A model generated the notes under the pieces. The model had not been told where the DNA came from. It did no database searches and saw nothing but the letters and a program-made list of their open reading frames with translations. From NCBI GenBank assembly GCA_023144005.1, contig JAGLGN010000025.1, positions 1-48,944 on the forward strand: a stretch of 48,944 nt of DNA, written 5' to 3'. Source of the DNA: a bacterium (GTDB lineage: Bacteria > AUK180). Position numbers and translations under genes: made by a program. Below are positions 6,604 through 24,056 of this stretch, one piece after another. The stretch's first letter is position 1. Each line of letters starts with the position of its first letter.

Positions 6604-6708
6604 GACACCAGAAAATACAGTTTCCCTACATACCTGCAATTCACTCTCGTAAATAAAGTTAACTTTTTTTTAGCTCTTCGAAATTATTTGTGATATTTCG
6701 CCGATATT
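6604..6708. repeat. Direct repeat unit 1 around the small membrane-protein gene
   Basis: This unit of about 105 bp matches 7134-7238 at roughly two thirds of positions. Shared blocks are CAGTTTCCC, ACATACC, CTCG followed by ATAAA, and AGTTAACT followed by a T-run and TAG. Shorter related pieces occur at 7302-7345 and 7376-7397. Confidence 0.6.
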
Positions 6709-6774
6709 ATCCCACGAATTAATGGCATTTACCGATAAAAAGAGAGCGACTCCCTTTTCAAAACTGCAGATCTC

Positions 6775-7068
6775 TTATAATTTATTATCAGTATCGTCTT
6801 TTACCTTCTTAAGATTACTTCCTTTCTTGCCTTTACTTCTCTCACTAATTACAATGAAAGCCATCATTATTGTAGCCAATATGGAAATAAGTGCATTTCC
6901 TGTATTCAGAGAAATAGAGGCGCCAATTAATCCTACAAATACAAAATTAATAAAGTGATATTTTGCATCAAAATTCTTCACTTTTTTGCTGGTTCTAACC
7001 AAAATCTTATAAATGAAGAATATAATAAGAATGAAGATCAGCATAATTTGAAAGCACAAGTTCTGCAT
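6775..7068 (-). CDS. Small membrane protein of unknown function
   Basis: About 97 residues. A first hydrophobic helix (IMLIFILIIFFIYKILV) and a second pair-like hydrophobic stretch (FINFVFVGLIGAS and ISILATIMMAFIVI) suggest two or three membrane spans, followed by a charged Lys-rich cytoplasmic tail (SKGKKGSNLKKVKDD). No family is recognised. The start at 7068 is preferred to the longer frame (7104) because AAGGGG stands 4 nt before it and a promoter fits upstream. The gene is flanked on both sides by copies of a direct repeat, as if it moves with or was captured by it. Confidence 0.6.
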   Translation of the reverse strand: MQNLCFQIMLIFILIIFFIYKILVRTSKKVKNFDAKYHFINFVFVGLIGASISLNTGNALISILATIMMAFIVISERSKGKKGSNLKKVKDDTDNKL

Positions 7069-7085
7069 AAAACCCCTTTTGTACA

Positions 7086-7114
7086 TGATAATACATAAGA
7101 ACAAGAAATGTCAA
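7086..7114 (-). promoter_or_regulatory. Promoter of the small membrane-protein gene
   Basis: On the minus strand TTGACA (7109-7114), 17 nt, TTATCA (7086-7091), followed by a short leader with AAGGGG. Confidence 0.45.
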
Positions 7115-7133
7115 GGTACTAGGTTGACATTTT

Positions 7134-7397
7134 ACCACTTTCAAAATCAGTTTCCCCAACATACCAGATAAACAGCCTCGATAAATAGTTAACTATTTTT
7201 TAGATCCGCATAGGAATTGGAGATATTCACCGCTGATTTCAAGAGATTTCAAGCACTATTTCTACAAAGGTAAACATTTTAATCAGTTGCGATAAAATTC
7301 AGTTTTGAAAATAGTTAAGAATTTTTTGAGATGGTTTTACCTTCCTAGAAATTGGCTTTTCTCATTCAATTCTAAAAAGGTTAACTATTTTTCAGGG
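7134..7397. repeat. Repeat units 2-4 with recurring GTTAACTATTTTT core
   Basis: Unit 2 is 7134-7238. A diverged third unit (AGTTAAGAATTTTTTGAGA, from 7313) and a short fourth (GGTTAACTATTTTTCAG, from 7379) follow. No gene is seen in this 570-bp gap between 7069 and 7643 apart from these and the repeat at 7431. Confidence 0.5.
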
Positions 7398-7430: not shown

Positions 7431-7520
7431 GCGTAGCATGTTCCACTGGGATACTGGGCAACTGGGCTACTTACTACTGTTCCACTGGGTCCCTGGGTCA
7501 ACTGGGCGACTACGAAGCGT
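7431..7520 (+). repeat. Dispersed repeat module, left flank of the island
   Basis: It contains CTGCGTAGCA, two copies of GTTCCACTGGG and CGAAGCGTCATTG. Related modules lie at 24752-24800 (opposite orientation) and 35222-35273. It is non-coding; the ORF through it is a repeat artefact. Confidence 0.7.
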
Positions 7521-7642
7521 CATTGTCAATGCGATTTCCATAAAATACAATCAAATGATCTCAAATATATTTTACTCTCTTGGTATTGGGAAGTATTCCG
7601 GGTTCATTACTGGCCTGCTTATTCACTAGAAAATCCGGTGGC

Positions 7643-9703
7643 TCAGTTCTTTTCTGACAGGCTAAGTACTTCAAATAGTTGGTATATTTCGCTTTTCTGT
7701 TCCTTTGATAACTCGCTTTCTTGAAGCCATTTTTTAAGTTCCTTGAGAGACCAATCAATTATAGGATTACCTTTCATTACTTTTTCGAATTTATTTATGC
7801 TAACAGATTTTTCCCTTTTAGAAACGATACTACAGATAAGATCGAGTAGGCAGTATATAGGCTCGTACTTAGTGTTTTCAATCCTTGTGGAAATGGTCTC
7901 TAATTTTTCTTCACATTTTCTGTATTCGCTAGATACTAAAAAAAGCTCTGCGAGAGCAATAATTGCATCGATATTATCTTTCTCCATATCAAGAATTGTT
8001 TCAAAGTCACTTATTGCAGCTTGATAATCACCGATTCTAATGTAATGGTTAACTCTCCCAAAGTAGGGGGCATTATTAGTTGGGTCTATTTCAATCGCTT
8101 TGTTAAAATCATCGAGGGCTTTTTCATATTCTTCAAGCTCGATCAACGCAAATGCCCTGTTGACAAGAGCTTCATAACCTCTTTTGTCAATCTCTAATGC
8201 ATGGGTAAAATCATTAATTGCGTTCTTAAATTCCTTTATCCGCGAATAATTTATCCCCCTACTGGCATACGCTTTATAATTCTTGGGTTCCAAATTTATT
8301 ACATGATTCAGATCATTTATGGCCTTTTCATATTTTTCTTGATTTAGATAGAGATTTGCTCTATTATAATACACATGTGCAGATTGAGTATTCAATTCTA
8401 GTGATTTGTTGTAATCAGCAAGAGCAAGATCTTCCTTTTCCAACTTCATATAAGAATTTCCTCTATTAAAATATGCCAGCCCGTTATTTGGCTTTAGCCG
8501 AATTGCCGTCGAATGATCTTTAATCGATTGTTTGAAATTGTTGATCATGTGGTAAGCGCTCCCTCTTCCAGTATAAGGTTCAAATGCATGTGGATTGCAT
8601 TTGATCGCAGATGTGAAACCTTGAATTGCCTTCTTATATTGCTTAAGGTGATGGAGACACAAAGCTCGAAAATATATCGCGTGATAACTATCCGATGCCA
8701 TTTCAAGTGCTTTCGTGAAATCGTCAATTGCTTCGGAATAGCGTTTGATGTTAGAATATGCAACACCTCTGCCGATAAAAGCACTAGAGCTTTCCATTCC
8801 GGTTGATATTGATTTGGAAAAATCATTTATTGCTATACCATAATTACCTTTTCCAACTTCGCGGTTACCTTTTTCTATTAACCGAATCCCTTCTATTACT
8901 GTGTTTTGGGTTTGCAATAGTAAAGAAATCAATGGTTCATTATCATTTAATTTCTTTGATGTCTCCATATTATCATCAAGCTGCTTTAGAACGTCTTTCT
9001 TCTCCTGTAATATTCGACTCTCTTCTGGATCATTCGAAACAGAAAATACCCTTTTCTCTAGTTCATCAATTCTTTTTTCCAAATTGTCCTTTTCAATTAG
9101 TGCTTCTTCTTGAGGATTCATCCGAATTGCCACAATTCGCTCATTTGCCTGTTTCAAAGATTCCTGTAATTCGCCTACTTCTCTTTCACTTTGACCAAGT
9201 TTCATTTTTAAATCGATAACTTCCTCGGTTTCAATTAATTTAGTTTCAGCATTAACTTGATCTACATCTTTCAATTCATTGATGGCGATGATTAGCTTTT
9301 TTCTAAGTTCAGGTAATTTAGTACTAGAGTATATTATGTGACCCATATCACGAATATCAAAAGGTGCTTCCTCGATTTTTTGCGTAATTATTATTATTTT
9401 CTTTTTCGAAATGCCATGAGCAAACCCAAGCTCGTAAAAGACATTAGGATTTTTACCTGTGGTGTCTACAATTAGATAGTTTGCTTTTTGAATATTTTGG
9501 CAAATCTGTTGGCACCAAATAGAAAATGTTGAATATTTTGCATCTGCTCTTTCACAAAGATAATCATTGTCAACTTCCCTAATGGATTGTTGTACAATAT
9601 CATAAACTGAATCGAATTCAGCGAAAGGCATTAATACGAAAATATAATTTGGATCAACTACAATTTTGTGGTGACACTCCCCCCCCGTTTTATGACAGAA
9701 CAT
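7643..9703 (-). CDS. Deoxyribosyltransferase/TIR-like domain protein with coiled coil and TPR array
   Basis: A 686-residue, three-part protein. Residues about 20-145 form a Rossmann-like domain with YIFVLMPFAEFDSVYD, CERADA, NYLIVDTTGKNPNVFYELGF and KKKIIIITQ, the pattern of nucleoside 2-deoxyribosyltransferase-like/TIR-like domains. The Glu of FYELG is at the expected catalytic position. Residues about 160-250 are a charged coiled coil, and about 265-640 are some nine TPR repeats. The first 12 residues hold Cys/His pairs (CH and CHH) that may bind metal. N-glycosidase domains fused to TPR sensors are common in phage-defence and abortive-infection proteins, so NAD or nucleotide hydrolysis on sensing is a reasonable inference, not shown. 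CAGGAG precedes the ATG. It lies alone in AT-rich DNA. Confidence 0.8.
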   Translation of the reverse strand: MFCHKTGGECHHKIVVDPNYIFVLMPFAEFDSVYDIVQQSIREVDNDYLCERADAKYSTFSIWCQQICQNIQKANYLIVDTTGKNPNVFYELGFAHGISKKKIIIITQKIEEAPFDIRDMGHIIYSSTKLPELRKKLIIAINELKDVDQVNAETKLIETEEVIDLKMKLGQSEREVGELQESLKQANERIVAIRMNPQEEALIEKDNLEKRIDELEKRVFSVSNDPEESRILQEKKDVLKQLDDNMETSKKLNDNEPLISLLLQTQNTVIEGIRLIEKGNREVGKGNYGIAINDFSKSISTGMESSSAFIGRGVAYSNIKRYSEAIDDFTKALEMASDSYHAIYFRALCLHHLKQYKKAIQGFTSAIKCNPHAFEPYTGRGSAYHMINNFKQSIKDHSTAIRLKPNNGLAYFNRGNSYMKLEKEDLALADYNKSLELNTQSAHVYYNRANLYLNQEKYEKAINDLNHVINLEPKNYKAYASRGINYSRIKEFKNAINDFTHALEIDKRGYEALVNRAFALIELEEYEKALDDFNKAIEIDPTNNAPYFGRVNHYIRIGDYQAAISDFETILDMEKDNIDAIIALAELFLVSSEYRKCEEKLETISTRIENTKYEPIYCLLDLICSIVSKREKSVSINKFEKVMKGNPIIDWSLKELKKWLQESELSKEQKSEIYQLFEVLSLSEKN

Positions 9704-9894
9704 ATTTGTCTCCTGTTCGAATTTTACTAATTATTTCAGAAGCTATCAAATATTCTCTCATTACAAATAAATCGTATCACATTTCTCGTGGTTTTTCAAA
9801 TAATCGTAACCACAGAAAAGGAATCTCGCACCCTATTAGTAGTGTTGGAAGCTTCATCATCCTACGGAAGTATATATTGATGGGCAATATTAAT

Positions 9895-10629
9895 TTAATC
9901 ATTGTTCGTAGAGTCAAATTTTTGGGTGAATTCAGAATATTTGGAGTCTCCTATGGCTGATCTGATTTGATCAAGGACATCTACATCTTGAATGAGATTG
10001 GAGTAAGAAAATACAACATCCAAATATACAAACCAAATACGAAATAGTAGCCATTGCCACATTTGATAATCTAAAAGAAATATTAAGCCATTACTAGCCT
10101 TCAAAAAGCTTTGATCGGTGGTGATGTTAGTAGTAGGAATACCATTGGAATTTTGTGATGATTGCATCAATAAATGAACTTTTGTAAACCCTAAATCAAG
10201 GTGTTTCAAATTAATTAATATTCTCTTATGTAAATAATTCCAACATTCCCCATCACGCAAAATGCCCTTTAAAATTGGAGTTGATACGGGAATTCTAACA
10301 GGAGGTGGAGTGCTGGTAAATTTAAAATATTTAAAGAAATAACCATGATCATGAGGATTACTGACCTGGTCTGTAGGATTTAAATAATTTAAGTTGTTTA
10401 TTCTATCTTCATTGAAACTGTAAAATGTAGATGACATTAGCTCAATGAAGTCATTCTTAGAGACGTATTTTACCCAAGCTCCTTCAAGTAGTCTCAAGTT
10501 TAAATCTAATTCGTATAATAGAGAATTCACTATTCTCTTTTTTTGCCTTACAATTTTCTTTCGGTCAATTGTTACAATTAAGATTATCGTACAACAGCCA
10601 ATAATAATAGGCAATAATTCAAATGCCAT
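9895..10629 (-). CDS. Membrane-anchored protein of unknown function
   Basis: 244 residues. The N-terminal helix LLPIIIGCCTIILIVTI is a probable single membrane anchor, followed by a basic stretch (DRKKIVRQKKR), so most of the chain should be cytoplasmic. A Trp/Phe-rich hydrophobic stretch (LDYQMWQWLLFRIWFVYLD) near residue 190 may be buried or membrane-associated. No family is recognised. GGGGAG lies 8 nt before the ATG. It sits between the TIR-like gene and the radical SAM cassette on the same strand but is separated from both by gaps of about 190 and 450 nt, so it is probably its own transcript. Confidence 0.65.
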   Translation of the reverse strand: MAFELLPIIIGCCTIILIVTIDRKKIVRQKKRIVNSLLYELDLNLRLLEGAWVKYVSKNDFIELMSSTFYSFNEDRINNLNYLNPTDQVSNPHDHGYFFKYFKFTSTPPPVRIPVSTPILKGILRDGECWNYLHKRILINLKHLDLGFTKVHLLMQSSQNSNGIPTTNITTDQSFLKASNGLIFLLDYQMWQWLLFRIWFVYLDVVFSYSNLIQDVDVLDQIRSAIGDSKYSEFTQKFDSTNND

Positions 10630-11085
10630 AATAATCTCCCCTTTGTCGTTACTCTGAAATTTCTAGGTTCTCAGTTAAATATATCAAGATCGCTTATATT
10701 TAATTTCTTCGATAATATTTTACTTGATTTAGTATGAATTTTCAAATATCGTCTTTATAAAGAAAGGAGTAATCCACCCTCGCTTTACTGAGATGCAGGA
10801 GCACAGCCCTCAAATACCCATTTTCCGCATGGATACAGTGGGGATTCTAAGTCGTAACAATGGTAAGGTAATTGTTGTTGATCATCCCCATAACTAAAAG
10901 AGGTAATTTGTATTTTATGATAGTAGGTCTAAATAACCATATCCAAAATAAATTCTCCTTCAAACTCGTGCATGGTTTGCCACCTTTTTGATTTTTCTTC
11001 TAACTAACGTATAGAGTCACAACATTTTGAATTTTTTAGAATGTGACCTAGTAATAGATATAAAAGAGAACCCTCGTTCCCCGGT
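10630..11085. other. Gene-free AT-rich spacer
   Basis: No convincing gene. The only minus-strand short frame (about 14 codons from 10973) lacks a ribosome site. It contains a 12-nt match to the 16S rRNA 3' region that I regard as chance. Confidence 0.5.
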
Positions 11086-12132
11086 TTATGTGTTTTCTAA
11101 AAGATATTTTAACTTTGTTGAATCAATCTTATACAAGGATTTCACAATCCAATAAGGATTATTAGTAGAATTAATAACACTAGAAAATTCTAGATCCTTT
11201 CTAAGTTTCAATAATATCTCAGAAAAAGGAATGGTTAATAATTTAATGATATAGCTTTCAGATTTGATAAAATTATTCATTAACCTTGAATCGATTGTTT
11301 CTTTGTATACATTACCAATTATGCTTGTTTCAATTCCATAGAAATATACGTCACCATTAGGCCTTATTGTAATGTCAAATCCTGGTCTGCCCCTCCCCTC
11401 TAAACCCCCCAAAGTAAAGTTCTTACACATACGTTTTTCTAATATTTTAATATATTCTTCAATTGAGTATAAATCACGAAGACCTATTTTATCTGGGTTA
11501 ACAATATTTTGAAAATCAATTGGATATTGTAACCTATTCAATTTTACGAAGCCTTTTAAGTTGTCTAAACTAATGCCGCCATATTGAATGCTATTCTTTA
11601 TGCATAGTTTATAGAAATAATTGTTGCAGAACTGAATATCAGAAGTAATTGATCTAAAACCAATCTCAATATTCTCGTTCGGTATCGAGTTTACTAAATC
11701 TAGAAGTTTAGGGATGTTATACTTCTGCAAAGAAGATTCATGAAATCTGTCGATACTTACTCTGATTCTGAACTTTTTGTTATTAGAATGGCGCACTAGT
11801 TCAGTTACAAGATTTGATAATAAAAGAAAATTATAATTTAATCCGGTTGTAAAATCATAGAGGCAATCATTTCCTGCTTGAAAAATATCAACTACTGCTT
11901 TTGAATTATATATAGGTTCACCTTCGCCGCTAATCCCGACTCTATTTGCCTTGCTTAGCAGATATCGAATATTGCCCAATACCGTGTTGTTGATATTGAT
12001 ATTTGTATTATTGCGTTTATCTGAGTACATACAAAATTTACAATTGTTATCGCAAACATCCGTTACCTGAATATAGAGGATATTACCATCATCAAGAAAT
12101 AGGCTATCATTAATTTTTTGTTGAGTAACCAG
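11086..12132 (-). CDS. Radical SAM protein, probable CTG start
   Basis: Starting at the first ATG (12030) would give 314 residues without the cluster motif. The same frame stays open upstream to a TAG at 12142 and encodes VTDVCDNNCKFCMYSDK, a complete CX3CX2C motif. CTG at 12132 is preceded at 5 nt by AGGAGG, giving 348 residues. GISGEGEP corresponds to the GGEP SAM-contacting motif. The C-terminal half has GGLEGRGRPGFDITIRPNGDVYF, similar to the segment in SPASM-type enzymes where a product or auxiliary-cluster region follows, but few cysteines. The substrate is unknown. It is last in the seven-gene cassette, 167 nt after the previous stop. Confidence 0.8.
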   Translation of the reverse strand: MVTQQKINDSLFLDDGNILYIQVTDVCDNNCKFCMYSDKRNNTNININNTVLGNIRYLLSKANRVGISGEGEPIYNSKAVVDIFQAGNDCLYDFTTGLNYNFLLLSNLVTELVRHSNNKKFRIRVSIDRFHESSLQKYNIPKLLDLVNSIPNENIEIGFRSITSDIQFCNNYFYKLCIKNSIQYGGISLDNLKGFVKLNRLQYPIDFQNIVNPDKIGLRDLYSIEEYIKILEKRMCKNFTLGGLEGRGRPGFDITIRPNGDVYFYGIETSIIGNVYKETIDSRLMNNFIKSESYIIKLLTIPFSEILLKLRKDLEFSSVINSTNNPYWIVKSLYKIDSTKLKYLLENT

Positions 12133-12298
12133 TTTCTCCTCCTATATTTTCGTAACAAATAAGCGATGTACATAACAACGTATAAGGTTTTTCAATATAC
12201 TTCTGGATTTCAATTTTTGTAATTAGCTGGAAACAGTATTTTTCCGATACTGAATTTTAGTCTAGTAAAAGCAAGATTCACGATTTTTCCTATCATAC

Positions 12299-13300
12299 TT
12301 AATCCACTAAATTGTTCTTTTTCCCTTCATTAAATGGTAAGTTTACATGGTATTTCATTGGACAATGCTTACACCAACCTGGGCCTTTAGCACGAATTCG
12401 TTGCCATTTATCAGTCCGTAGCAAGTCACTCAAATTATTTTTGAGTAAATTACCTATCGTAGGATAATGGTAATATTCAATTGCACTACATGAGTGTACA
12501 TCTCCATTAGCTAAAATTATACACATAGTTCTGTTATATTTACAAGGATAATCACCTCCTTTTCCAGATTTCAGTAATATCAGATTTTTCGCTATTTTTT
12601 TCATTTGCAATTTTCGGGATTTGGATTGTTTTTCTTTATTTGTATTATTGATAAAATTAATACATCTGGGCAATACATCTGCTATGAAATAATTAATATC
12701 TTCAATACTTGGTTCAAATCTGTTAATATATCTGTGGAGACCTTCTAAAAATGAGATAAATAATATTTCTGGCTTAAATTGAGATATATACTGTAAGAAA
12801 ACATCAAAAACACGGATATTATAATTGGTCATTATTGTTTGAAGATATAAATCTATTGAAGATTTTTTTAGTAATATCATTGTAGTTCTAAGATTAGAAT
12901 TATCATCATTAATATTCTTTATTCTATTATGAATTTTAATGTTGTGACTGTACAAAGAAATTGTTATAGAATCTAACTTATATTCACTAAGATTATTAAT
13001 ACAATTTGAAGTCAATATATATCCATTTGTATTTAAATTAACATGGTATCCTATATCCTTTCCAATTTTAACTAATTCAAGTAATTGTTTGTAAAGTAAT
13101 GGTTCACCGCCACTTATGTGTAAATATTTCGCACCAAGATATTTTGCTTCTGTTAATATTTTTTCCCACTCATTTATACTTAACATTATATTTGATTTTA
13201 ATTTGCTATGCAATTTTAACCTTGGTTTACAAAATTCACATGATGCATTACATAATAAAATAGGTTTTATTACTATATGATCCAACTTATAATATTTCAT
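12299..13300 (-). CDS. Radical SAM/SPASM-like maturase
   Basis: 333 residues. CNASCEFC (C17, C21, C24) binds the radical SAM 4Fe-4S cluster, and SGGEP is at 63-67. The C-terminal part contains YPCKYNRTMC, GDVHSC and WCKHCPMKYH, the cysteine spacing of SPASM/twitch auxiliary clusters, which are common in enzymes that modify peptides or proteins (PqqE, AlbA and sactisynthase relatives). It overlaps the kinase-like gene by 4 nt. A peptide substrate is inferred from family behaviour; no precursor peptide gene was found in the cassette. Confidence 0.88.
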   Translation of the reverse strand: MKYYKLDHIVIKPILLCNASCEFCKPRLKLHSKLKSNIMLSINEWEKILTEAKYLGAKYLHISGGEPLLYKQLLELVKIGKDIGYHVNLNTNGYILTSNCINNLSEYKLDSITISLYSHNIKIHNRIKNINDDNSNLRTTMILLKKSSIDLYLQTIMTNYNIRVFDVFLQYISQFKPEILFISFLEGLHRYINRFEPSIEDINYFIADVLPRCINFINNTNKEKQSKSRKLQMKKIAKNLILLKSGKGGDYPCKYNRTMCIILANGDVHSCSAIEYYHYPTIGNLLKNNLSDLLRTDKWQRIRAKGPGWCKHCPMKYHVNLPFNEGKKNNLVD

Positions 13301-13905
13301 AATGTTCCTAAGAAATATATATCATTAAGCAACATAAAGTACATTCTAATAATTTGAGATGTCCCAATTTCTAAGGGTAAAATATCTCGCCCATAATCAA
13401 TAAATTTTAACTTCTCATTAACAAGGATAAAATTTTTTACTGTCATATTAACAGTAATATATTTAGATTTAGTCATTTCATTAATAATCTCAATCACTTG
13501 ATTTTTATAAAGGATATTCCAATTTTCCTTAAGCATTAAATTTGATAGAGTCTTCGACTCTTCAAAGGGATATTCTATTAATAATATATTCCTATCAATT
13601 TTTTTTACATGATATTTATAGAAATATTCTGATTCCTTTATTTTACAGTTGAAATTATTTAAATAATTAAAAGTTTGATCGATATTGGGTCTATATGATG
13701 GAATTAAACTCCAATTAAGAATAAATTTTTTCACTAAATCTCCGTCTTTATAGACAAAACCTTCTTTTCCTACTCCTAATAGTAACGGATTATTTAAATA
13801 ATTTTTACATTTTTTGTCTAAAATACTAAATAAGTCTAATTCAGAAATATAATTTATCTTTTCTTTCCAATAGTTCATCATAGATTTACATAGTTTTTCT
13901 CTCAT
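13297..13905 (-). CDS. Small kinase-like protein, catalytic Asp apparently missing
   Basis: 202 residues with a compact protein-kinase/aminoglycoside-phosphotransferase-like layout. The glycine loop is LLGVGKEGFVYKDGDLVKKF, with the Lys of VKKF at the ATP-lysine position. The region corresponding to HxDxxxxN reads NMTVKNF, so Asn replaces the catalytic Asp. FIDYGRD stands for the DFG metal site. The nucleotide may still bind, but phosphotransfer is doubtful. It overlaps the glycosyltransferase by 1 nt and the SPASM protein by 4 nt, so expression is tightly coupled. A regulatory or substrate-holding role is possible. The assignment rests on motif reading alone. Confidence 0.6.
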   Translation of the reverse strand: MREKLCKSMMNYWKEKINYISELDLFSILDKKCKNYLNNPLLLGVGKEGFVYKDGDLVKKFILNWSLIPSYRPNIDQTFNYLNNFNCKIKESEYFYKYHVKKIDRNILLIEYPFEESKTLSNLMLKENWNILYKNQVIEIINEMTKSKYITVNMTVKNFILVNEKLKFIDYGRDILPLEIGTSQIIRMYFMLLNDIYFLGTL

Positions 13906-15041
13906 TATTCCTCAAAAAATGTCTTCAAAAAATAATTTAGTATTTGATTTTTTGAAATTCTAATCTTTATTTTACATCTCAACTTTCTAATTTCTTGTAG
14001 GTTTTTAAATATAGAAAGAATATTCTTTGAAAGTACTTCAATATTGTATATTTCTGAAAATATATTAAATTGACTAGTTGTGAGGGCGGCAACTTCTCTA
14101 ATACCTGAAATATCATAGCCTACAATAGGTAGTCCACATAAAACTGCTTCAATAGCAGAATTACATAATCCTTCTCTTACAGAAGTAGTAATATAGAAAT
14201 CAGAGGAATTATAAATTTTGTACATATCACTTTCATTTAAAAAACCAAGAAATATTACATTATGTATTTTCTTATCTTGAATTAGTTTCCTTATTTCATT
14301 TTGGTATATTTGATCTTCATACACATCACTATTACCAACTAATATTAATAAACTATCAATATTGGCAATTTTCCATGCCAATAACAGATCATGCAAATTT
14401 TTAATTTCAGTAATCCTACCACTCCAAATAGCAATTGATTTATCAATTGGCAAATTAAAATATTTCCTAAAACTATTCCTCTCTTTTATAGGATAACACC
14501 TATACTTACTATCATCATAAATATTATATATTACATCGACACGTGATTCAATTTTATCATCCAATACTATCTTGGATTTCATAAATTCTGTTGGTACAAT
14601 TATTTTGTCACAGGTTGTAATTTGCTTTATTCTCTCATCATTGTTTATTACATCCTCAAAATCACCAGTTGTAGCAATCCGTAAATAAACTTTGTAATTC
14701 AATAGTTTCGCATATTTTATGCAGCTAAGTTGAGCATTGATTAAATTCTCATACTCTAATCCAATAAAAAATATATGCTTATAATTTTTCCGTTTCTCTT
14801 TTATGCAGGGAAGTAAATTATTCCAAAACCGTTCTCGAGTCCCAGGTAGATATTCTATCTTAGCATTAACACTTCTTAGTAATTCTCGGTGTACCTTTCT
14901 ACCTAATTCAGGTTCAGGGGAAATGATTCTAACACGGATCCCTTCTTTTAAAAATGAATTAGACAATCTGTTTGTAAAATGTTGTAATCCTCCATATGTA
15001 GGATAGAAATATTGGGGAACAAAAATAATTCTATTTTTCAT
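13905..15041 (-). CDS. Family 4 glycosyltransferase
   Basis: 378 residues with the GT-B fold of retaining GT4 enzymes. The acceptor-domain opening is VPQYFYPTYGGLQHFTNRLS; the donor domain starts near IWSGRITEIKNLHDLLLAW; the nucleotide-sugar signature is REGLCNSAIEAVLCGLPIVG (EX7E type). It transfers a sugar from an activated donor to an unknown acceptor in the cytoplasm. No sugar-biosynthesis genes are nearby, so the donor is presumably a common UDP- or GDP-sugar. It overlaps the cyclase-like gene by 4 nt. Confidence 0.9.
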   Translation of the reverse strand: MKNRIIFVPQYFYPTYGGLQHFTNRLSNSFLKEGIRVRIISPEPELGRKVHRELLRSVNAKIEYLPGTRERFWNNLLPCIKEKRKNYKHIFFIGLEYENLINAQLSCIKYAKLLNYKVYLRIATTGDFEDVINNDERIKQITTCDKIIVPTEFMKSKIVLDDKIESRVDVIYNIYDDSKYRCYPIKERNSFRKYFNLPIDKSIAIWSGRITEIKNLHDLLLAWKIANIDSLLILVGNSDVYEDQIYQNEIRKLIQDKKIHNVIFLGFLNESDMYKIYNSSDFYITTSVREGLCNSAIEAVLCGLPIVGYDISGIREVAALTTSQFNIFSEIYNIEVLSKNILSIFKNLQEIRKLRCKIKIRISKNQILNYFLKTFFEE

Positions 15042-15775
15042 TTTTTATCTAATAAGCTCCCTTTTGAATCCATATTTTCACTCCAAAATCTATAATACAT
15101 GTTAAAGGGTCTTATCCTAGGATCAAAAGTTTTTTTAAAGTTAAATTCCCCATCACCCTTACCAGCTTCTTTTTCATACCAGAAAATTGGATAGTCCCTT
15201 ATGAGTTTCTGTTCAGAAATACCTTTTAATTTTGCACTAGCCACAAAGAAAAGTTCTTTGCAATTTCCTAAACACTTTGCTAAATTGTAACAAACTATTA
15301 TTCTATTCCCTTCCACAAATTTTGCAATTCTAAATCCTGTATCAATATGTTCCCCTAGAAAATCAACAATTTTCGATTTATCGGGGCCTTTTGTATATTT
15401 ATATAATTTTATTTCATTATTTCCAGCAAGCCAAATAGCACATTTAATATCGATTTCAACATAATTTTCCTTATTTTGTTTTTTTATAAATACAATATAT
15501 TCTTCTCGGATTTTTTCAAATGAATCAGAAATTTTCTTTATTTCTTTATTGATATTATTTTTAATGTAAACTTTATTAAATTCTTTATATAAAAGAACTT
15601 CGTCACCAAGATATTTCCATATTTTATAACTATTATTTTTACATAATGAACTGAAAATCAAATTATAAAATTTGTCAAATTTATCAATCCATTTAGAGTC
15701 ATATATTTTATATTTAGTTCCATTAACAATATCAGACGATATAAATATATGTGGTACTTCTATTAATTTATACAT
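15038..15775 (-). CDS. Class III nucleotide cyclase-like protein
   Basis: 245 residues with the landmarks of a class III cyclase homology domain. HIFISSDIVNGTKY carries the first metal Asp, KYLGDEVLLYKEF the second, and DFLGEHIDTGFRIAKF is equivalent to the DxxGxxVNxAAR segment, with the transition-state Arg kept and the Asn changed to Asp. Both metal ligands are present, so activity as a homodimer is possible; the base specificity cannot be read. Cyclases of this class also make cCMP or cUMP in Pycsar defence, but no cyclic-nucleotide-binding effector is evident here. It lies inside a modification-type operon, which is unusual for a cyclase. Confidence 0.65.
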   Translation of the reverse strand: MYKLIEVPHIFISSDIVNGTKYKIYDSKWIDKFDKFYNLIFSSLCKNNSYKIWKYLGDEVLLYKEFNKVYIKNNINKEIKKISDSFEKIREEYIVFIKKQNKENYVEIDIKCAIWLAGNNEIKLYKYTKGPDKSKIVDFLGEHIDTGFRIAKFVEGNRIIVCYNLAKCLGNCKELFFVASAKLKGISEQKLIRDYPIFWYEKEAGKGDGEFNFKKTFDPRIRPFNMYYRFWSENMDSKGSLLDKK

Positions 15776-15784
15776 ATCGTCCTC

Positions 15785-16576
15785 CTATTTCTTTTTATAT
15801 AATCCTTTTATTTTGTCATCTTCACAAAAATTATCATGAAAGAAATTTAAATATCTTCTCGTTTTGGATTGCCGTATTGCTTCCTTCAAGTGAGTACCAC
15901 CAACTATTCTATATGATTTAGGAAATAGAGAGGATGTAAAAAAATATCCATTCTTCTTTAAGGCTTTATGTATAATTGTTAAAATTGAATAAGGGTCTCG
16001 TATATGTTCCAATACTTCTCTACATATTATCATATCAAAGTAAGAATTATTCATTTTGGGACATACGTTATTGCAAGTTAACTCTTCGATATGTGTTTTC
16101 ATTTTCCTTGTCTCAAACCTGAATTTAGTGAATTCTAATAATTTATTTTTAAGATCACAAGCATAAGTTTCATAACCTAATACATTCAAGGCAATACATA
16201 TATCACCAATACCGCAACCATAGTCATAAATTCTTGTATTTTCAATAGAAATATGTTTCTGAATAAAATCTAATATCGGATACATCATTTCAATTTTGTT
16301 TAACCTTCCCAACATGTGCCTAACAGCATACAGCTCTGATGCCCATTCATAACATTTAAAAAGACCCCAGTTGAATTTTGTTAGTTCTGATGGAAAAAAT
16401 GAATGAAGAACCTTTTTGAATTCATCAGAATTGAAAGGTACAATTGTTCCTAATTCCTCTAAGTATTCCTTTGTAATTCCCCAAAATTGCGTAAATTCAT
16501 TCCGTCTATCTTCATAAAAACTTGCATTCTTATCTAATTGGCTTAAGAGCTTAATTTTTTCTAACGAATAAGTCAT
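15785..16576 (-). CDS. Class I SAM-dependent methyltransferase
   Basis: 263 residues. Motif I is IYDYGCGIGDICIALNVLG, followed by YACDLKN (acidic residue for the SAM ribose) and NSYFDMIICREVLEHIRDPY (motif of UbiE/COQ5-type small-molecule methyltransferases). An N-terminal helical region of about 90 residues probably covers the substrate. The substrate is unknown; the setting suggests it methylates the product of the cassette. It overlaps the MiaB-like gene by 4 nt and is separated by 9 nt from the cyclase-like gene. Confidence 0.88.
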   Translation of the reverse strand: MTYSLEKIKLLSQLDKNASFYEDRRNEFTQFWGITKEYLEELGTIVPFNSDEFKKVLHSFFPSELTKFNWGLFKCYEWASELYAVRHMLGRLNKIEMMYPILDFIQKHISIENTRIYDYGCGIGDICIALNVLGYETYACDLKNKLLEFTKFRFETRKMKTHIEELTCNNVCPKMNNSYFDMIICREVLEHIRDPYSILTIIHKALKKNGYFFTSSLFPKSYRIVGGTHLKEAIRQSKTRRYLNFFHDNFCEDDKIKGLYKKK

Positions 16577-17739
16577 CCTACACTCTCTAATATATAATTA
16601 AACCGGCTGTTTATTTCATTCTTTGATAATTTATTTTTCATTTTGTATGAGATTGTTTTTTTATGAGAGAAATATTTGAAAATTTTAAAATTTACATAAT
16701 TCAACTCTTTTATTTGTTCAATATTAATATTTACGTCTGTCATTGTTTCTCCAGGAAACCCAACCAAAATATGGCCATGTAATTGAATATTTGCATTTTT
16801 TTCGTTTACTTTATGAAAGAAGTTTATTACACCTGAGGAACTATATTTTCTATTCATTTTCCTTAGTATATTATCAGAAAAGCTCTGAATTGGTATCACA
16901 ATGTGCTTGAAGTTCATTGAAGTATTATTAAGTAAATCAATAAGTCCACTAGAGTAGATATTTAGAAAAGTTGGATTTAAGCCTGTTAAAGCAATTTCTT
17001 TTTTCAATTTTAATGTATTCACCTGAATAAATAGATCTAATAAAGTGCACCCTTTGTCAATTCCATATGCTCCAGTATCTTCAGCAGTAAATGTAAGTTT
17101 TTCGTCATTGCAACTTAGTATCTCTTCTATGATTTTAGATATTGGTTTACTTCGAAGATTTCCCATTACAGGTTTAATTGCACAATATGAGCAATTTGAC
17201 AAACAACCACTTGCAATTTTGATAATTCCTGAAGATTCTTTAAAATTTTGATAATTAATATTAGATTGAATTCTAGTTGAAGCATTATGAAATTTATCAT
17301 TGCTTTTAATTTTTAAAACATCGGAGTAGCTTTTTATATTTGAAATTTTATAGGGCTCAGATATTTCTGAAAAAGGAATACTTTGCTTTTCCAAAATATT
17401 TTGAACTTCTGAGATGTTGTTTGGACTTATATAATAATACTTACTACTATTATTTTTGTGATACTCATTATTCATATGAGGAAAACATCCCAAGACAATA
17501 ATTTCCCTATTATTTTGCTCAAAATGGAAATGCTGTGTAATATTATTAATAATCGCGATTGAATCATCCTGATTTCTTCCATCATATCCACAAGTACTTA
17601 TGAGAATTATATCAGCTTCTTGAATATTATCTGAGTTTATTAGACCATTTTTCTGTAACCATATGGCTATTTTCTCAGCTTCAATTTTGCGTCTAATACA
17701 TCCATTTGCACAAATGAAGTATTTCTTTTTTTTATTCAT
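16573..17739 (-). CDS. MiaB/RimO-like radical SAM methylthiotransferase without TRAM domain
   Basis: 388 residues. The N-terminal UPF0004 domain has its three auxiliary-cluster cysteines (ICANGC, ISTCGYDG, VLGCFPH). The radical SAM core has SGCLSNCSYCAIKP near residue 180 and later HGHILVGFPGETMTD. The chain stops near residue 388 without the RNA-binding TRAM domain of MiaB, RimO and MtaB, so tRNA or ribosome modification is less likely and a different substrate is suggested. It is first in the cassette. TATAAC lies 5 nt before the ATG, but no good -35 is seen. Confidence 0.85.
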   Translation of the reverse strand: MNKKKKYFICANGCIRRKIEAEKIAIWLQKNGLINSDNIQEADIILISTCGYDGRNQDDSIAIINNITQHFHFEQNNREIIVLGCFPHMNNEYHKNNSSKYYYISPNNISEVQNILEKQSIPFSEISEPYKISNIKSYSDVLKIKSNDKFHNASTRIQSNINYQNFKESSGIIKIASGCLSNCSYCAIKPVMGNLRSKPISKIIEEILSCNDEKLTFTAEDTGAYGIDKGCTLLDLFIQVNTLKLKKEIALTGLNPTFLNIYSSGLIDLLNNTSMNFKHIVIPIQSFSDNILRKMNRKYSSSGVINFFHKVNEKNANIQLHGHILVGFPGETMTDVNINIEQIKELNYVNFKIFKYFSHKKTISYKMKNKLSKNEINSRFNYILESVG

Positions 17740-17926
17740 TGTTAGTTATAACATTTTCTACTCAAATTTTTTCTAAATATTTCTTTTTTTAAGCTCATTT
17801 CTTTTGTTATTCCCCTTCGCTGCATTTATTTCGTATGCAATACTTAATTTCCTTATGAAATTGAAGCGCTTCCCCTTAAATGAGAAAATCTCACGCATTT
17901 CAGTTGACAACACTAAATCAGGCATC

Positions 17927-18108
17927 TCACAATTCTCCCTGTTTTTCAAATCCTCTAAGAGAATTGTATTTCAGAGAAGAAAGCATCCTCTCCTTGTTGT
18001 AGCATTCTTTGAAATTGTCCAATCCCTCGCAAGATTTCTCATATGTTTCAAAATCATTAAACCATATACGCTCCTTCTCCAAGTTCTTGATGCCTGTAAT
18101 ATTTTAAC
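17927..18108 (-). pseudogene. Relic of an IS3-family transposase C-terminus
   Basis: The minus strand, with an in-frame stop near 18060, reads FNDFETYEKSCEGL and FKECYNKERMLSSLKYNSL, then FEKQGEL and a stop at 17927. This follows the IS3 OrfB ending (tyrosine-asparagine-arginine YNxxRxHSSLxYxSPxxF pattern), with degenerate positions. The upstream part of the element is missing, cut off by the gene ending at 18111. The rest of the 370-nt gap down to 17740 holds no gene. Confidence 0.65.
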
Positions 18109-18110
18109 AA

Positions 18111-19727
18111 TCATTTTCTCTCTAATTTATTCATGATATCCATTAGTAAGTCTTTATTTACATGAGTTGATGCATTTGGTAGAGACCTAATATTACTTAG
18201 CAGGGTTTCGTTTTTATATTGTTTCATATTTTCTACTATGCTATTTAACAGTATAATTAATTCACCCGATTTAAAATTTTCCTTTATTAGAAAATCTGAA
18301 ATTTTATCTGCAATTTGGCTTTTTCTATTTTTTCTCATTATTTTCGACACTTTTCCATAAAGAATATTAATTATTTCCAATTTCTGTATTGATGTATTCT
18401 TAACTATTTCATCTACTATTCTCTCCATTAATATAACAAGATCATTTTTTTGCATAATATTCTCAATGTTGTCCCAGAATAAATCAAGTTTCTCATCATT
18501 AATGTTCTTTACGATTAGATTACCAATTTCAATAAAAGTCATCTCTAAAGGCTCTTTCTTAATGAATTTAATTAAGAATTCTAAGAACTCCTCCGATAAA
18601 TCAGCCCAGCAAATTTTTATTGTATCTTTAAGAAATTCCTTAATACTCTCTTTAAGTAAATCGATTATTATGTAGACTTCATAGTCAATATTTAAAGATA
18701 AGAAAGTGCAAGCTTCATCCCACAATGGGTCCCACTCTCCATTATCTTCCCTGCTATTTAAAATACTGACAATTTCTTTTTTCACTGCAGTTTTCTTTTT
18801 TATTAAATTATTCTTCAAGAAATATATATATTCAGCTTCGGCATTTTCTTTGAATAAAATCGAATAATATAATAACATTTTAACATCGGTTTCAATTTTG
18901 AGAATCGCTTTGCAAATAAGATCTTTTTGAGGAAATCCTTTTCCATTCTCCAAATTTGATAGAAAGAAATCTACTGAACTAAATTCTTTAATATATTTAA
19001 GGTACTCTGAAAGTAAATCAACATCCGTTTCTTCAAAATTTAAACCATTTATAATACTTATATAATTGCTGCTAACTCTTTGTCCATTCGCATTATAACT
19101 GACGATGCTTTTGCTAATGTCTAAATGAAATAAAATAATCAATAAATATAGCATAATAAAATAATCTATATTTTTCCGTTTATCCTGATGCAAACCCATA
19201 ATAAAAAAATGTTCTAATTTTATTGCTTTTTCCCCTTGCTCTGATGCCAAACTAACTAAAATAAGAAAGAGAAATTCCCAGAATTCCTTATACTCCAATA
19301 ATGAATTATATTTCTCCTTTATGGTGCTTAAAGAATGCATTTTATAAAAATGGTCGCTGATTTTGATTATCTTATCATAATTGATTTTTTCTTTTTCTAC
19401 AGTAAAATATGTTTTCATCATTTTGCTGTAGAGCCTATAATCATTTTCTAGAATGTTGTAGAATACGGCAGTCTCATTCATATTTAAGTCTGTTTCTATA
19501 GAAATTAGTTCAATAATTTCGTCCCACCTATCTTCGACTAACTTATCAACAATTGACTTAAATTCATTATCACTACTAAATAGATATTTGTAATACTCCA
19601 TTTTTGCTTCGTCTTCTTTTTTCTCTAGTTGTGAAAAAAATGTTTCCTTTGTCACTTGTAAAATATCTCCATCAATGCTTATCATTTTCAAAATTCCATT
19701 TATTATCGTACTTTTATTATTCATCAT
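18111..19727 (-). CDS. Large helical protein of unknown function, partner of the KAP NTPase
   Basis: 538 residues, almost entirely predicted helical, rich in Lys, Glu, Ile and Leu, without a recognised domain, signal peptide or clear membrane segment. Repeating blocks of hydrophobic and acidic residues (for example FLEFLIKFIKKEPLEMTFIE) resemble alpha-solenoid or helical-bundle proteins. It starts 1 nt after the stop of the KAP NTPase, so the two are translationally coupled and very likely act as a pair. Base composition is the low-GC type of the island. Function is not known. Confidence 0.7.
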   Translation of the reverse strand: MMNNKSTIINGILKMISIDGDILQVTKETFFSQLEKKEDEAKMEYYKYLFSSDNEFKSIVDKLVEDRWDEIIELISIETDLNMNETAVFYNILENDYRLYSKMMKTYFTVEKEKINYDKIIKISDHFYKMHSLSTIKEKYNSLLEYKEFWEFLFLILVSLASEQGEKAIKLEHFFIMGLHQDKRKNIDYFIMLYLLIILFHLDISKSIVSYNANGQRVSSNYISIINGLNFEETDVDLLSEYLKYIKEFSSVDFFLSNLENGKGFPQKDLICKAILKIETDVKMLLYYSILFKENAEAEYIYFLKNNLIKKKTAVKKEIVSILNSREDNGEWDPLWDEACTFLSLNIDYEVYIIIDLLKESIKEFLKDTIKICWADLSEEFLEFLIKFIKKEPLEMTFIEIGNLIVKNINDEKLDLFWDNIENIMQKNDLVILMERIVDEIVKNTSIQKLEIINILYGKVSKIMRKNRKSQIADKISDFLIKENFKSGELIILLNSIVENMKQYKNETLLSNIRSLPNASTHVNKDLLMDIMNKLERK

Positions 19728-19728
19728 C

Positions 19729-21615
19729 CTACTCCATATCTTCTTTAAACAGTTCGGTCATGATTTTTTCGAGTATCAGCTTCTTTCTCTTCTGGTCCAA
19801 GTCTTGATTATTCATTAGAAATATTAATCCTTCTCCACTAATTTGATCTATAAATAAATTTTGTTGTTGCTTTTCGATTGTGTGAATTATCAATGATCCA
19901 ACTTCCCTTTTAAATAATATTGAAAACTTTTTAGATATTGAATCTTTAAAGTAAAACAACAAATAATACAATTTACAATAAAAATCGAATTCTCCGTCGC
20001 TCACTTCATCCATTATATTTCTAATATAAGGTTCAATTTTATCGATAGATATTTTGTTTAGAATATTTTCTATTTCATTACTATCACCAGCACTGTTTTC
20101 ATTCAGTGCTTGAATTTCTGAAATAAGTTTATCTTTATAAAGTAAATCAGAAATATCAAATGTTTTGTATTTAAGAATCTTATAGCTTTTTTCTAATAAA
20201 ATATTGCTATAATTCACTTTATTTAGGTAATTAATTATTCTTTTTACCTGTTTGTCGTTGTCCTTACCTGCTTTTCCTTTCTTTAAATAATCTAAAAAAG
20301 ATAAATGGCATTTATACTTTTGACACCCAACATAGACACCAACCAAAACCACATCTAACCAGTTACCTTTTTGCATTCTCTCGCTCTCATTACTAATTGC
20401 TCTGATTAGGCCATAGTTGATTGATACTTCATTTAAATAGTTTATTATTTCTCGTGGGGTAATTGGCTTACTGTCACTCAAAAAAAGATAAAATATGCGA
20501 ATTAGTATATTCTCTTTTTCTTTTTCTTTTCCAAATAATTCTTCAAATTTTTCCTTAAAGATATTTCTCCAATTTAACTGTGAAATGTCGGGGATTTCTA
20601 TTGTATACGGAAATACTTTTTCAATAAATTCTTCTTCAAAATGATTTAGTTGTTGACCCAAATTTTGTTTGTCATTTCCATTTATACTCTCATTTACATA
20701 GCTATTGTTTTTTATTGATGAAAATACAGCTTTTACTCTTTCTTTATCAATGGGAATAACAAACCATACATTATTAAATTTCTCATTTTCATAGCTCTTT
20801 AATCCCTCTATTGTAAGCATTAACAACGAAATCATTCTCATTATGGTTCCATTATCAACTCTATCAAGATCATCTAACACTATTACTAATTCATCTAAGC
20901 TGGACCCATCGATGTTTTCAAGTATTTCTAGAAATAGCTGTTTATACACATAAGAAGGAAAATCTTCCGATTGTTCAGTTTCATTTGTATCTGTAATATT
21001 ATAGTCGCCTTTTAATAGTAAATCAGATATTTTTTTTAGGTTTTTGTCATCAAGGAAAGCTAAAAGGAATAATGTACCAACAGATATTACTGATACTGCT
21101 AGAGCAACAAGTGAAGAATGGAAAAAATTGTTTAAATTTTGAAAAATTAAATGAAACAAAGAAACACCTAAGACATTTATCAATAATAAAAACATTAAGA
21201 ATTTCGTAATAAAACTAAATGAAATGTCATCCTTATTTTTAGTGACATGTCTCTTTACAATTTTCCTAGTAATATTTTGCTCTAATGATTCTTTCTCCAT
21301 CGGAAAAAAATCATATAAATTCTTCAGGAAAACTCTATACAAATAATCATCTTTATGTGCCCATGAATTAAAAATAAATACATTATTACTTCGTTCTGTT
21401 TCCACTAATTCTATAATGGTTGATTTTCCTGACCCCCAATTCCCAAATAGACCGATTACATGTTTTTCTATTGGGATTTTGTTATCCATTATTTTTATTA
21501 TAGTTTTTGAAATTGTTTGGTGTATTCCAATTTTATCTTCTTTTGAGGGAACATCTTTTAAAATTTTAATTTTACTTCGGTGTTGATTTTCTTCTTTATT
21601 ATTGCGATTCTCCAT
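19729..21615 (-). CDS. KAP-family P-loop NTPase with inserted membrane segments
   Basis: 628 residues. Walker A is GLFGNWGSGKST (residues about 55-66), followed by VFIFNSWAHKDDYL, characteristic of KAP NTPases. Two transmembrane helices are inserted between Walker A and B (FLMFLLLINVLGVSLFHLIF and VALAVSVISVGTLFLLAFL, about 135-185). Walker B is ELVIVLDDLDRVD. Bacterial KAP proteins are often mobile, membrane-linked and found in defence islands. A sensing or membrane-remodelling role with the helical partner is an inference. GGAGG lies 6 nt before the ATG. Confidence 0.88.
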   Translation of the reverse strand: MENRNNKEENQHRSKIKILKDVPSKEDKIGIHQTISKTIIKIMDNKIPIEKHVIGLFGNWGSGKSTIIELVETERSNNVFIFNSWAHKDDYLYRVFLKNLYDFFPMEKESLEQNITRKIVKRHVTKNKDDISFSFITKFLMFLLLINVLGVSLFHLIFQNLNNFFHSSLVALAVSVISVGTLFLLAFLDDKNLKKISDLLLKGDYNITDTNETEQSEDFPSYVYKQLFLEILENIDGSSLDELVIVLDDLDRVDNGTIMRMISLLMLTIEGLKSYENEKFNNVWFVIPIDKERVKAVFSSIKNNSYVNESINGNDKQNLGQQLNHFEEEFIEKVFPYTIEIPDISQLNWRNIFKEKFEELFGKEKEKENILIRIFYLFLSDSKPITPREIINYLNEVSINYGLIRAISNESERMQKGNWLDVVLVGVYVGCQKYKCHLSFLDYLKKGKAGKDNDKQVKRIINYLNKVNYSNILLEKSYKILKYKTFDISDLLYKDKLISEIQALNENSAGDSNEIENILNKISIDKIEPYIRNIMDEVSDGEFDFYCKLYYLLFYFKDSISKKFSILFKREVGSLIIHTIEKQQQNLFIDQISGEGLIFLMNNQDLDQKRKKLILEKIMTELFKEDME

Positions 21616-21636
21616 ATTTTTCCTCCGATATTGTAT

Positions 21637-21645
21637 ATTATATCA
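21637..21645 (-). promoter_or_regulatory. Extended -10 promoter of the KAP gene pair
   Basis: On the minus strand TGATATAAT (TG-N-TATAAT) with no good -35, leaving a leader of about 15 nt with GGAGG. The rest of the 309-nt gap (21616-21924) shows no convincing gene; a 64-codon frame there has no ribosome site or family. Confidence 0.45.
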
Positions 21646-21924
21646 AATTCTCTTCAGTCCCCAGATAGCACAGATCGTTACCTTTTTTGATATGAATACT
21701 GTGTTGAGAAATGTTATTTTCAGTCATTAGTCCTCTCACATCAATAATAGTAAAGCACCTTATCGACAAAGTATAACCTGAAGAAACTGAGAAGTCAAGA
21801 AATTGGAAGACATTCCTTGCATTGTTTGGCATTTTTTTCGAAGATCCCGTAGAGGCTTGTTAGCGAATCCCCTCTTGGCTACAATAATCAACTTGTGAGC
21901 ACCTTAGCATTTCCATATTGTGCT

Positions 21925-23421
21925 CTACTCTTTTTCTCCAACTATCTTCTTGAATTCTCTCGTATTTCTGATATTAGTAAAATCGTCTTCATGCTGAGCT
22001 CTTATCTTACAAAACTCATCAATATTTACAGCCCTTTCTAAATACTTGATCGCCCTGGATGTTTTTTTCTGAATTGAGTATAAACATGCTAAATCATAAT
22101 TGAGCAGCGCTTGATCCTCACATTCATTTATTGCCTGCTTATAGATCGTTTCCGTCTCTTCATAACGCTTTAATTCGATTAGCAGAACTCCTAATCTTTT
22201 ATATGCAAAATACTTCTTCGGATTAATCTTAATTGCCTTCTTGTAGGCTTCTTCCGCTTCTTTGTAACGATTTGATTCGGCCAGTAAATCTCCTAATTCT
22301 TTGTATATGAAATATTCATTCGGGTTAATTTCTATTAATTCCCGGATCTTCTTTTCGCTGTAGTACTTTCTTATATCGTCTAACATTTCAGTAAAATCAT
22401 TATTATCAGGTATTGTCTTTTTTCTGTTCTCAATTAAATTGCACGCCTTACTGAACTCTTGCGTAGATTTTTCATAAAGCTTCATAGATTCCCGGCATAG
22501 TATTTCATAATCAGCTTTTTCTTGAAGTAAGCTCTTATCTAAATGATAATTTGCCTGACAATAATAAATGTCTCCTCTAAAATAGTGTAATGCTATTTTT
22601 GCGTTTTCAAATTCCTCATCAATTGAAGCCTTACGGTCAAAGATCTTATTAAAATGTACTTCGGAATTACTGTGATCCTCGTCTAATAGGCATACTATGC
22701 CAAGCGTGGAATGTGTCAGAAATACAAGTGTATTGGAGATGCTTTCTGTGAGATATGTGATCTTGAATTTCTTGCTTATTTCTTCTAATGTCTGACCTTT
22801 ATTCTTTTCAAATTCGATATTCCTCACCATTTTAATCTCAGGGCTTTTCACAATCGTAAGAGAAGTTTTGACTGTAACATCATCGTTCCATCCCCAGATT
22901 ACCATAATAGTCTTTGCATTTTTCCGGGTGCAGATACTACCCTCTTTTAATGCTTTCTCGTGACTGGGAATAATTTGTGAAGAAGTTACAACTTTAATTG
23001 ATGATAAATCATTCTCATTTATCTCTTTTAAAAAAGCTTCCCGGATTCTTTTCGAGATATTGATCTTGCTGTTACCTTCATTGATAAATTGCGAAATAAC
23101 TATGATCGTCTTATTCTGATTTCGGTAAATATCAAAAGGTTTGATCGCTATGAAAAGAAATATAGCGGCCAATACAACAGAACATAGGTATATTGTTTTA
23201 GTTTTTGCATTTTTCACCTTTTTGATGATCAGAAAAATGGCACCCGCTATAAGAAGGATCAAAAGAATATTGATAATGATCGGACAGGCAATATACTTTC
23301 CAGTCCTCTGAAATAGAATTGTAAGCCCTTTAATTATCGGGTTAGAGATTACCGCTGTTACCACTCCTATGACGATTACTGCTACTATATATTTTTTAAC
23401 CCAATTAATTATTGAGGTCAT
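21925..23421 (-). CDS. Membrane protein with three N-terminal spans and C-terminal TPRs
   Basis: 498 residues. Three membrane helices lie near 9-28, 44-64 and 75-95 (VAVIVIGVVTAVI, ILLILLIAGAIFLII, LCSVVLAAIFLFIAI). Next comes a globular part with TIIVISQFINEG and NAKTIMVIWGWNDDVTVKTS, similar in style to TolB-N/FlgO-like sensor segments seen in other TPR proteins. The C-terminal 140 residues hold about three TPRs (YKELGDLLAESNRYKEAEEA and its repeats). The substrate and partners are unknown. It follows the 108-residue membrane protein by 21 nt and is probably co-transcribed with it. GC is slightly higher than in the radical SAM cassette. Confidence 0.75.
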   Translation of the reverse strand: MTSIINWVKKYIVAVIVIGVVTAVISNPIIKGLTILFQRTGKYIACPIIINILLILLIAGAIFLIIKKVKNAKTKTIYLCSVVLAAIFLFIAIKPFDIYRNQNKTIIVISQFINEGNSKINISKRIREAFLKEINENDLSSIKVVTSSQIIPSHEKALKEGSICTRKNAKTIMVIWGWNDDVTVKTSLTIVKSPEIKMVRNIEFEKNKGQTLEEISKKFKITYLTESISNTLVFLTHSTLGIVCLLDEDHSNSEVHFNKIFDRKASIDEEFENAKIALHYFRGDIYYCQANYHLDKSLLQEKADYEILCRESMKLYEKSTQEFSKACNLIENRKKTIPDNNDFTEMLDDIRKYYSEKKIRELIEINPNEYFIYKELGDLLAESNRYKEAEEAYKKAIKINPKKYFAYKRLGVLLIELKRYEETETIYKQAINECEDQALLNYDLACLYSIQKKTSRAIKYLERAVNIDEFCKIRAQHEDDFTNIRNTREFKKIVGEKE

Positions 23422-23892: not shown

Positions 23893-24056
23893 ATTAGGGA
23901 CGGTCTTTGATTTTGTACACTATCGACATGCAAAAATGTAAATCAAGTTGAATGATATATTTTCTGCACTGTAGGCGATATAGTTTATCAAGACTGCAAA
24001 TTTATTGAAATACCGCTCTTAAAAACAAGTGAACAAATTCAAACACCGTCCCTAAT
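23893..24056. mobile_element. 164-bp MITE-like element with 28-bp inverted ends
   Basis: The ends read ATTAGGGACGGTCTTTGATT on the left and, in reverse complement, ATTAGGGACGGTGTTTGAAT on the right. The match continues to 28 bp with three mismatches. It has no coding capacity. The GGGACGGTGTTTGA type of end is known to me from small transposase-associated elements in many genomes. It stops 4 nt before the end of the next gene. Confidence 0.8.

Follow-up and report, generated by a model that had tools for sequence, protein, structure and literature searches.

Three groups of described enzymes stand closest to the locus reported here. The methylthiotransferases MiaB, RimO and MtaB (TIGR00089) combine a UPF0004 domain with a radical SAM core and carry three auxiliary-cluster and three SAM-cluster cysteines, together with a TRAM domain. 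PqqE, BlsE, MoaA and viperin have a radical SAM core in common with SPASM cysteines. In Pycsar, a class III cyclase, PycC, is paired with an effector responsive to cyclic nucleotides (PycTM or PycTIR), and base selection in PycC clades B, D and E is attributed to Tyr/Phe at one position and Lys/Gln/Asp at another (PMC11224242).

In the 48,944-nt stretch of bacterial DNA that was analyzed (the window), relatives of all three groups are encoded together on the minus strand, as determined by ORF reading and domain searches (Table 1). A literature search recovered no described cassette with this gene set; the vWA/MoxR conflict system of PMC7159879 was considered as an identity and rejected. We suggest that the locus is a laterally acquired, translationally coupled cassette of six genes within a mobile, defence-type insertion. 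Its most likely product, in our tentative reading, is a small molecule derived from a modified nucleotide or nucleoside.

A packed six-gene cassette in an insertion at a variable site

In transcription order, the junctions between the seven genes are -4, +9, -4, -1, -4 and +166 nt, the last measured from the CTG start at 12132. Tight packing is thus confined to six genes, all with intact reading frames: four of their five junctions are overlaps of 1-4 nt, and the remaining one is a gap of 9 nt. When each of the six was compared with the pool of the other five, codon usage was homogeneous (z -0.7 to 1.4), and the KAP NTPase gene also fit this pool (z 0.6), while values outside the six were 2.7 for rSAM3, 5.7 for the TIR-like/TPR gene and 2.7 for the 538-aa gene; these z values are rough, the genes being short. 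Because of this translational coupling and shared codon usage, the six genes are likely to form a unit. The preliminary description had placed seven overlapping genes in one acquired unit with no described pathway. Six of them conform to that picture; rSAM3 lies apart, has relatives of its own elsewhere and may be a later add-on, which leaves the seven-gene unit weaker. A weak terminator-like stem (11082-11065) follows rSAM3 on its 3' side. No Rfam match was obtained.

Table 1. Features of the cassette, its surroundings and the compared plasmid loci
Feature	Position	Strand	Size	Remarks
MiaB-like radical SAM protein	16573..17739	-	388 aa	First in transcription order
Class I SAM methyltransferase	15785..16576	-	263 aa	Second
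Class III nucleotidyl-cyclase-like protein	15038..15775	-	245 aa	Third
GT4 glycosyltransferase	13905..15041	-	378 aa	Fourth
Kinase-like protein	13297..13905	-	202 aa	Fifth; kinase call by motif only
Radical SAM + SPASM protein	12299..13300	-	333 aa	Sixth
rSAM3	11086..12132	-	348 aa	Probable CTG start behind AGGAGG; possible seventh member
Short ORF MIGKIVNLAFTRLKFSIGKILFPANYKN	12210..12296	-	28 aa	Two nt past the SPASM stop; weak precursor-peptide candidate
Insertion missing from G003	7583..21931		~14.35 kb	Approximate limits
TIR-like N-terminal domain fused to TPR repeats	7643..9703	-		Inside the insertion
IS3-type transposase end, remnant	17926..18110	-		Upstream of the cassette; rve_2 E 0.0055, 58-aa reading, below curated cut-off
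538-aa protein and KAP NTPase	18111..21615	-		Defence-type neighbours within the insertion, 1 nt apart
Geobacter anodireducens pSD operon	L006 8896-12725			Largely unannotated; TRAM-less methylthiotransferase leads
Enterobacterial plasmid cassette	L007 4113-13354; L008 4097-13336			Contains rSAM3 relatives

The cassette lies in an AT-rich island with a GC content of 0.23-0.36, compared to about 0.44 in the flanks. In a genome of the same genus (G003), the blocks matching either side (window 7513-7582 to 10665-10734 of contig L114, and window 21932 to L114 11077) are 343 nt apart versus 14,350 nt in the window, and for this reason the cassette is taken as part of an insertion. Composition favours gain in the window over loss from G003, in agreement with the earlier proposal that the genes were acquired. 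G003 carries other variable genes at this locus, which is therefore a variable site.

Two sets of defence-type neighbours share the insertion. The KAP NTPase (Pfam KAP_NTPase 2.4e-20; PADLOC PifA 3.2e-11 and QatA 4.8e-8) precedes the 538-aa protein, which had no family match and no relatives in a plasmid search; the pair is a possible two-gene defence unit. The TIR-like/TPR protein sits beyond rSAM3 and orf244 and matches a PADLOC TIR effector (1.2e-9), its N-terminal domain reaching only E 0.14 against CAP12-PCTIR_TIR, and no cyclic-nucleotide-binding domain was found in it. Neighbours of these types would suit any mobile island.

The MiaB-like protein and a proposed nucleotide-derived product

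The first protein of the cassette has the UPF0004 and radical SAM core of the methylthiotransferases (Pfam UPF0004 4.7e-11, Radical_SAM 3.4e-12). In an alignment with 13 relatives, its auxiliary-cluster cysteines (14/50/85) and SAM-cluster cysteines (179/183/186) are all invariant. Unlike MiaB, RimO and MtaB, it ends before the TRAM columns of the alignment, and it scores 194.8 bits against TIGR00089, under the cut-off of 251. Three other members of the family in the same genome are of TRAM length (418-440 aa). Of the matches to this protein in the phage collection, the two inspected closely are full-length, TRAM-sized family members, and short MiaB-family frames in two sampled genomes (G081 and G100) proved to be ordinary MiaB genes amid housekeeping genes.

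A parallel comes from Geobacter anodireducens plasmid pSD. There, a TRAM-less methylthiotransferase comes first, and the genes after it encode a P-loop protein resembling deoxynucleoside kinases and two sugar-transferase-like proteins with weak or no family matches. Both cassettes thus have a TRAM-less methylthiotransferase at the head along with sugar-transferase-type proteins, but the Geobacter operon has the P-loop kinase where the window has the cyclase, methyltransferase and SPASM protein. The two methylthiotransferases are 26% identical (125 bits), no closer than ordinary family members, which reach 138 bits; the comparison therefore speaks for a common theme but not for common descent, and the parallel may be convergent. 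A MiaB tree pairing the two proteins (93/93) was not used because both sit on very long branches.

We infer a nucleotide substrate, an order of steps and a biological role in defence or competition as follows. The cyclase would make or bind a cyclic nucleotide, and the TRAM-less MiaB-type enzyme would place sulfur or a methylthio group on a small-molecule base in place of tRNA. The SPASM enzyme would carry out a second radical modification, after which the methyltransferase and GT4 enzyme would complete the product. The substrate class is assigned because of the relatives of these enzymes and is the weak link of the model. Besides the complete methylthiotransferase core, the missing TRAM domain and the three other family members in the genome, the model draws on the packing and shared codon usage of the six genes, on their absence from the sister genome and on the retained fold and metal-binding residues of the cyclase described below; the Geobacter gene order would fit by analogy. 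Against it, remote homology among radical SAM enzymes is a poor guide to substrate, neither a resistance nor an export gene could be recognised, and no second copy was found. The Geobacter comparison and the kinase-like protein also count against it, the latter being unsupported and apparently without a catalytic Asp. The presence of a TRAM-less methylthiotransferase beside three members of its family makes the proposed small-molecule substrate testable.

The cyclase and its family's Pycsar-like context

Neither Pfam nor NCBIfam gave a significant match for the cyclase. Its AlphaFold model (pLDDT 80.6) matches CyaB (3r5g) by Foldseek at 1e-9 with a probability of 1.00, and superimposes on class III cyclases with TM scores of 0.59-0.71. 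Aligned with 30 other members of its family, it keeps all invariant residues, including the metal-binding D15 and D58; K54, D138 and R149 are also present, and the usual catalytic (transition-state) Asn reads Asp (D145) both here and throughout the family. Fold and alignment confirm the original call of a class III cyclase-like protein, any cyclase activity being putative.

Plasmid and phage searches placed relatives of the cyclase on Leptospira plasmids, a Sphingomonas plasmid and the Clostridioides phages phiC2 and phiCD27, and alignment scans added 31 viral-contig and 37 genome loci. At 24 loci with a resolved cyclase frame, a gene for an M78 peptidase, CapP-like in PADLOC where scanned, is present and almost always at -1; a small membrane protein lies near the cyclase at 13 loci, and those scanned match PycTM. 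Many related cyclases end in an additional domain that matches Nudix structures. The window cyclase lacks both this tail and the M78/PycTM neighbours. The preliminary description had singled it out as the odd member of the cassette, which is borne out by a Pycsar-like family context whose partners are missing here.

A possible though doubtful alternative is that the cyclase responds to phage by producing a signal, with the other enzymes modifying this signal or forming an effector, and the insertion acting as a defence island. The M78 and PycTM partners seen elsewhere, the KAP NTPase and TIR-like protein in the island and the occurrence of rSAM3 relatives within a JukA/PDC-M40B plasmid cassette would all be consistent with such a role. 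However, the operon contains no M78 peptidase, PycTM, PycTIR or other cyclic-nucleotide-binding effector, PADLOC reports no Pycsar protein in the window, and position in the island is association only. At the positions of the PycC base-selection residues, located by offset, the window cyclase has S13 in place of Tyr/Phe and L56 in place of Lys/Gln/Asp (PMC11224242). Membership in Pycsar was rejected on the missing effector and on these residues.

The family shows two arrangements. The first is the recurring cassette already noted, composed of a CapP-like M78 peptidase, a class III cyclase, often with the Nudix-like tail, and in about half of cases a PycTM-type 2TM protein (for example, L041 9392-10855, L052 9393-11866 and about 22 similar loci, including Clostridioides and Leptospira prophages). 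PADLOC detects the partners and not the cyclase. This cassette, found repeatedly in bacterial genomes and in prophages, could be tested for a defence function by itself. The second context is separate from the Pycsar-like one: cyclase relatives in L004, L043, L048, L057, L066, L069 and L070 adjoin a conserved gene, which encodes a SpoIIE/PP2C-type phosphatase on L004, the other six loci being alphaproteobacterial.

The SPASM protein and a possible peptide substrate

The sixth gene encodes a radical SAM protein (Radical_SAM 2.2e-16) with a SPASM domain scoring above its cut-off (1.3e-8) and cysteines at 17/21/24 and 253/260/271/310/313. Among proteins of solved structure, BlsE, PqqE and MoaA are closest to it, and viperin is a weaker match. 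Three of these, BlsE, MoaA and viperin, are nucleotide or nucleoside enzymes, which suggests a substrate of that type, while PqqE acts on a peptide. The protein lies under the cut-off of every named NCBIfam family. Prokaryotic viperin was rejected as its identity on an NCBIfam viperin score of 61.7 bits against a cut-off of 180; the PADLOC pVip model, for which no cut-off is displayed, gave 75 bits.

The SPASM domain leaves room for a RiPP-like pathway, in which the SPASM and MiaB-like enzymes would modify a peptide encoded elsewhere or by the 28-aa ORF, the GT4 enzyme would glycosylate it and the cyclase would regulate the process. Among named families, the GT4 enzyme (Glycos_transf_1 5.6e-23) is best matched by TIGR04157 (71.9 bits), a model named for its radical SAM association, followed by BshA (61.9 bits), both far under cut-off. 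The short ORF just past the SPASM stop begins with an ATG without a Shine-Dalgarno sequence, has a shorter GTG form behind AGGA and is possibly a chance ORF. No convincing precursor was found among the small ORFs. Since the unit encodes neither a leader peptidase nor a transporter and the SPASM protein is far under all peptide-maturase cut-offs, we consider this pathway unlikely. The peptide and defence readings are nevertheless nearly as likely as the nucleotide reading.

The remaining enzymes and rSAM3

The methyltransferase (Methyltransf_23 4.9e-14) has a DYGCGIGD motif at residue 118 and an N-terminal extension of ~95 aa. Its call, and those of the MiaB-like protein without TRAM, the SPASM-like protein, the third radical SAM protein and the GT4 enzyme, agree with the preliminary ones by Pfam/NCBIfam and alignment. 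The kinase call lacks statistical support. The protein has suggestive motifs (GVGKEGFVY at 44, VKKF at 58, NMTVKN at 153 and IDYG at 169), but it has no Pfam match, a best NCBIfam hit to a Bud32 model at E 0.11 and hhalign scores to Kdo and APH kinases at the level of shuffled controls. Locally, the best match to Kdo kinases falls in the catalytic-loop region, where the protein has Asn in place of the expected Asp. A single-sequence fold prediction reached pLDDT 36, and a plasmid search gave no relatives. Given the lack of a recognisable profile and the apparent loss of the catalytic Asp, the protein is best left unassigned.

In rSAM3, the radical SAM motif reads CDNNCKFCM. Because the ATG ORF (to 12030) would lose this CX3CX2C motif, a non-ATG start is needed, as proposed earlier, and CTG 12132 is probably used. 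Its only relatives found are three enterobacterial plasmid proteins with 28-29% identity, from Citrobacter, Enterobacter and Raoultella. Their cassette encodes WYL, JukA-like, PDC-M40B-like, radical SAM, PHP, unknown, GT32-like and GT9-like proteins, and one example adjoins AbpA; it is a possible JukA-based multi-gene system. It shares with the window an rSAM3-type protein, glycosyltransferases and adjoining defence genes, but its JukA, PDC-M40B, WYL and PHP proteins are missing from the window cassette. Membership in Juk or PDC-M40 was rejected, no JukA or PDC-M40B match being found among the window proteins scanned. Viral-contig scans with rSAM3 and the MiaB-like protein, as single proteins and as two- or three-row alignments, gave no relatives.

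GT4 enzymes and methyltransferases are common in surface-glycan loci, and the plasmid cassette includes PHP and GT32/GT9-like proteins. On this basis, the GT4 enzyme, methyltransferase and kinase-like protein might cap a surface polysaccharide or lipid, and the radical SAM enzymes might modify a sugar. We regard this as improbable, given that no nucleotide-sugar, flippase or polymerase gene is present and that the MiaB-like protein and cyclase would have no clear role.

Search for a second copy

None of the cyclase-bearing loci (31 viral-contig, 37 genome and related phage and plasmid loci) contained another cassette gene (tblastn, E 1e-4), and the cyclase was found in 0/6 other genomes of the phylum. 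Searches with the kinase-like protein and rSAM3 were confined to sampled genomes, viral contigs or plasmids, and neither protein had a match beyond chance in the 386 genomes sampled. The absence of a second copy is provisional because these collections were limited and the scans used short exact patterns, which distant cassettes could escape. The preliminary description had set recurrence of the set as its check, with genes that never co-occur elsewhere counting against it; as far as searched, the set occurs nowhere else. The claim of a conserved system is therefore weaker, and the genes are not thereby shown to be unrelated. We regard the cassette as a real, unusual orphan whose mechanism we infer.

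That the genes are a chance collage of acquired sequences with no joint function would agree with the single copy found, the transposase remnant upstream and the deviating codon usage of rSAM3 and its neighbours, but the overlaps, the common strand, homogeneous codon usage and intact frames of the six genes argue against it, and we find it hard to credit. Least probable of all, and to be regarded as speculation, is a new kind of signalling or toxic molecule consisting of a cyclic nucleotide covalently decorated with methylthio, methyl and glycosyl groups, made by a Pycsar-family cyclase together with a methylthiotransferase that lacks TRAM and would use free nucleotides as substrates. If functional, the cassette would join radical SAM sulfur chemistry and a Pycsar-type cyclase in one operon, a combination described in no source found.

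Repeats occur on both sides of the insertion region. At the left edge of this region (window 6653-7395), a 21-nt repeat centred on GTTAAC occurs in three near copies, and to the right of the insertion (window 23893-24056) lies an inverted repeat of 29 nt (90%) whose arms are separated by 106 nt.
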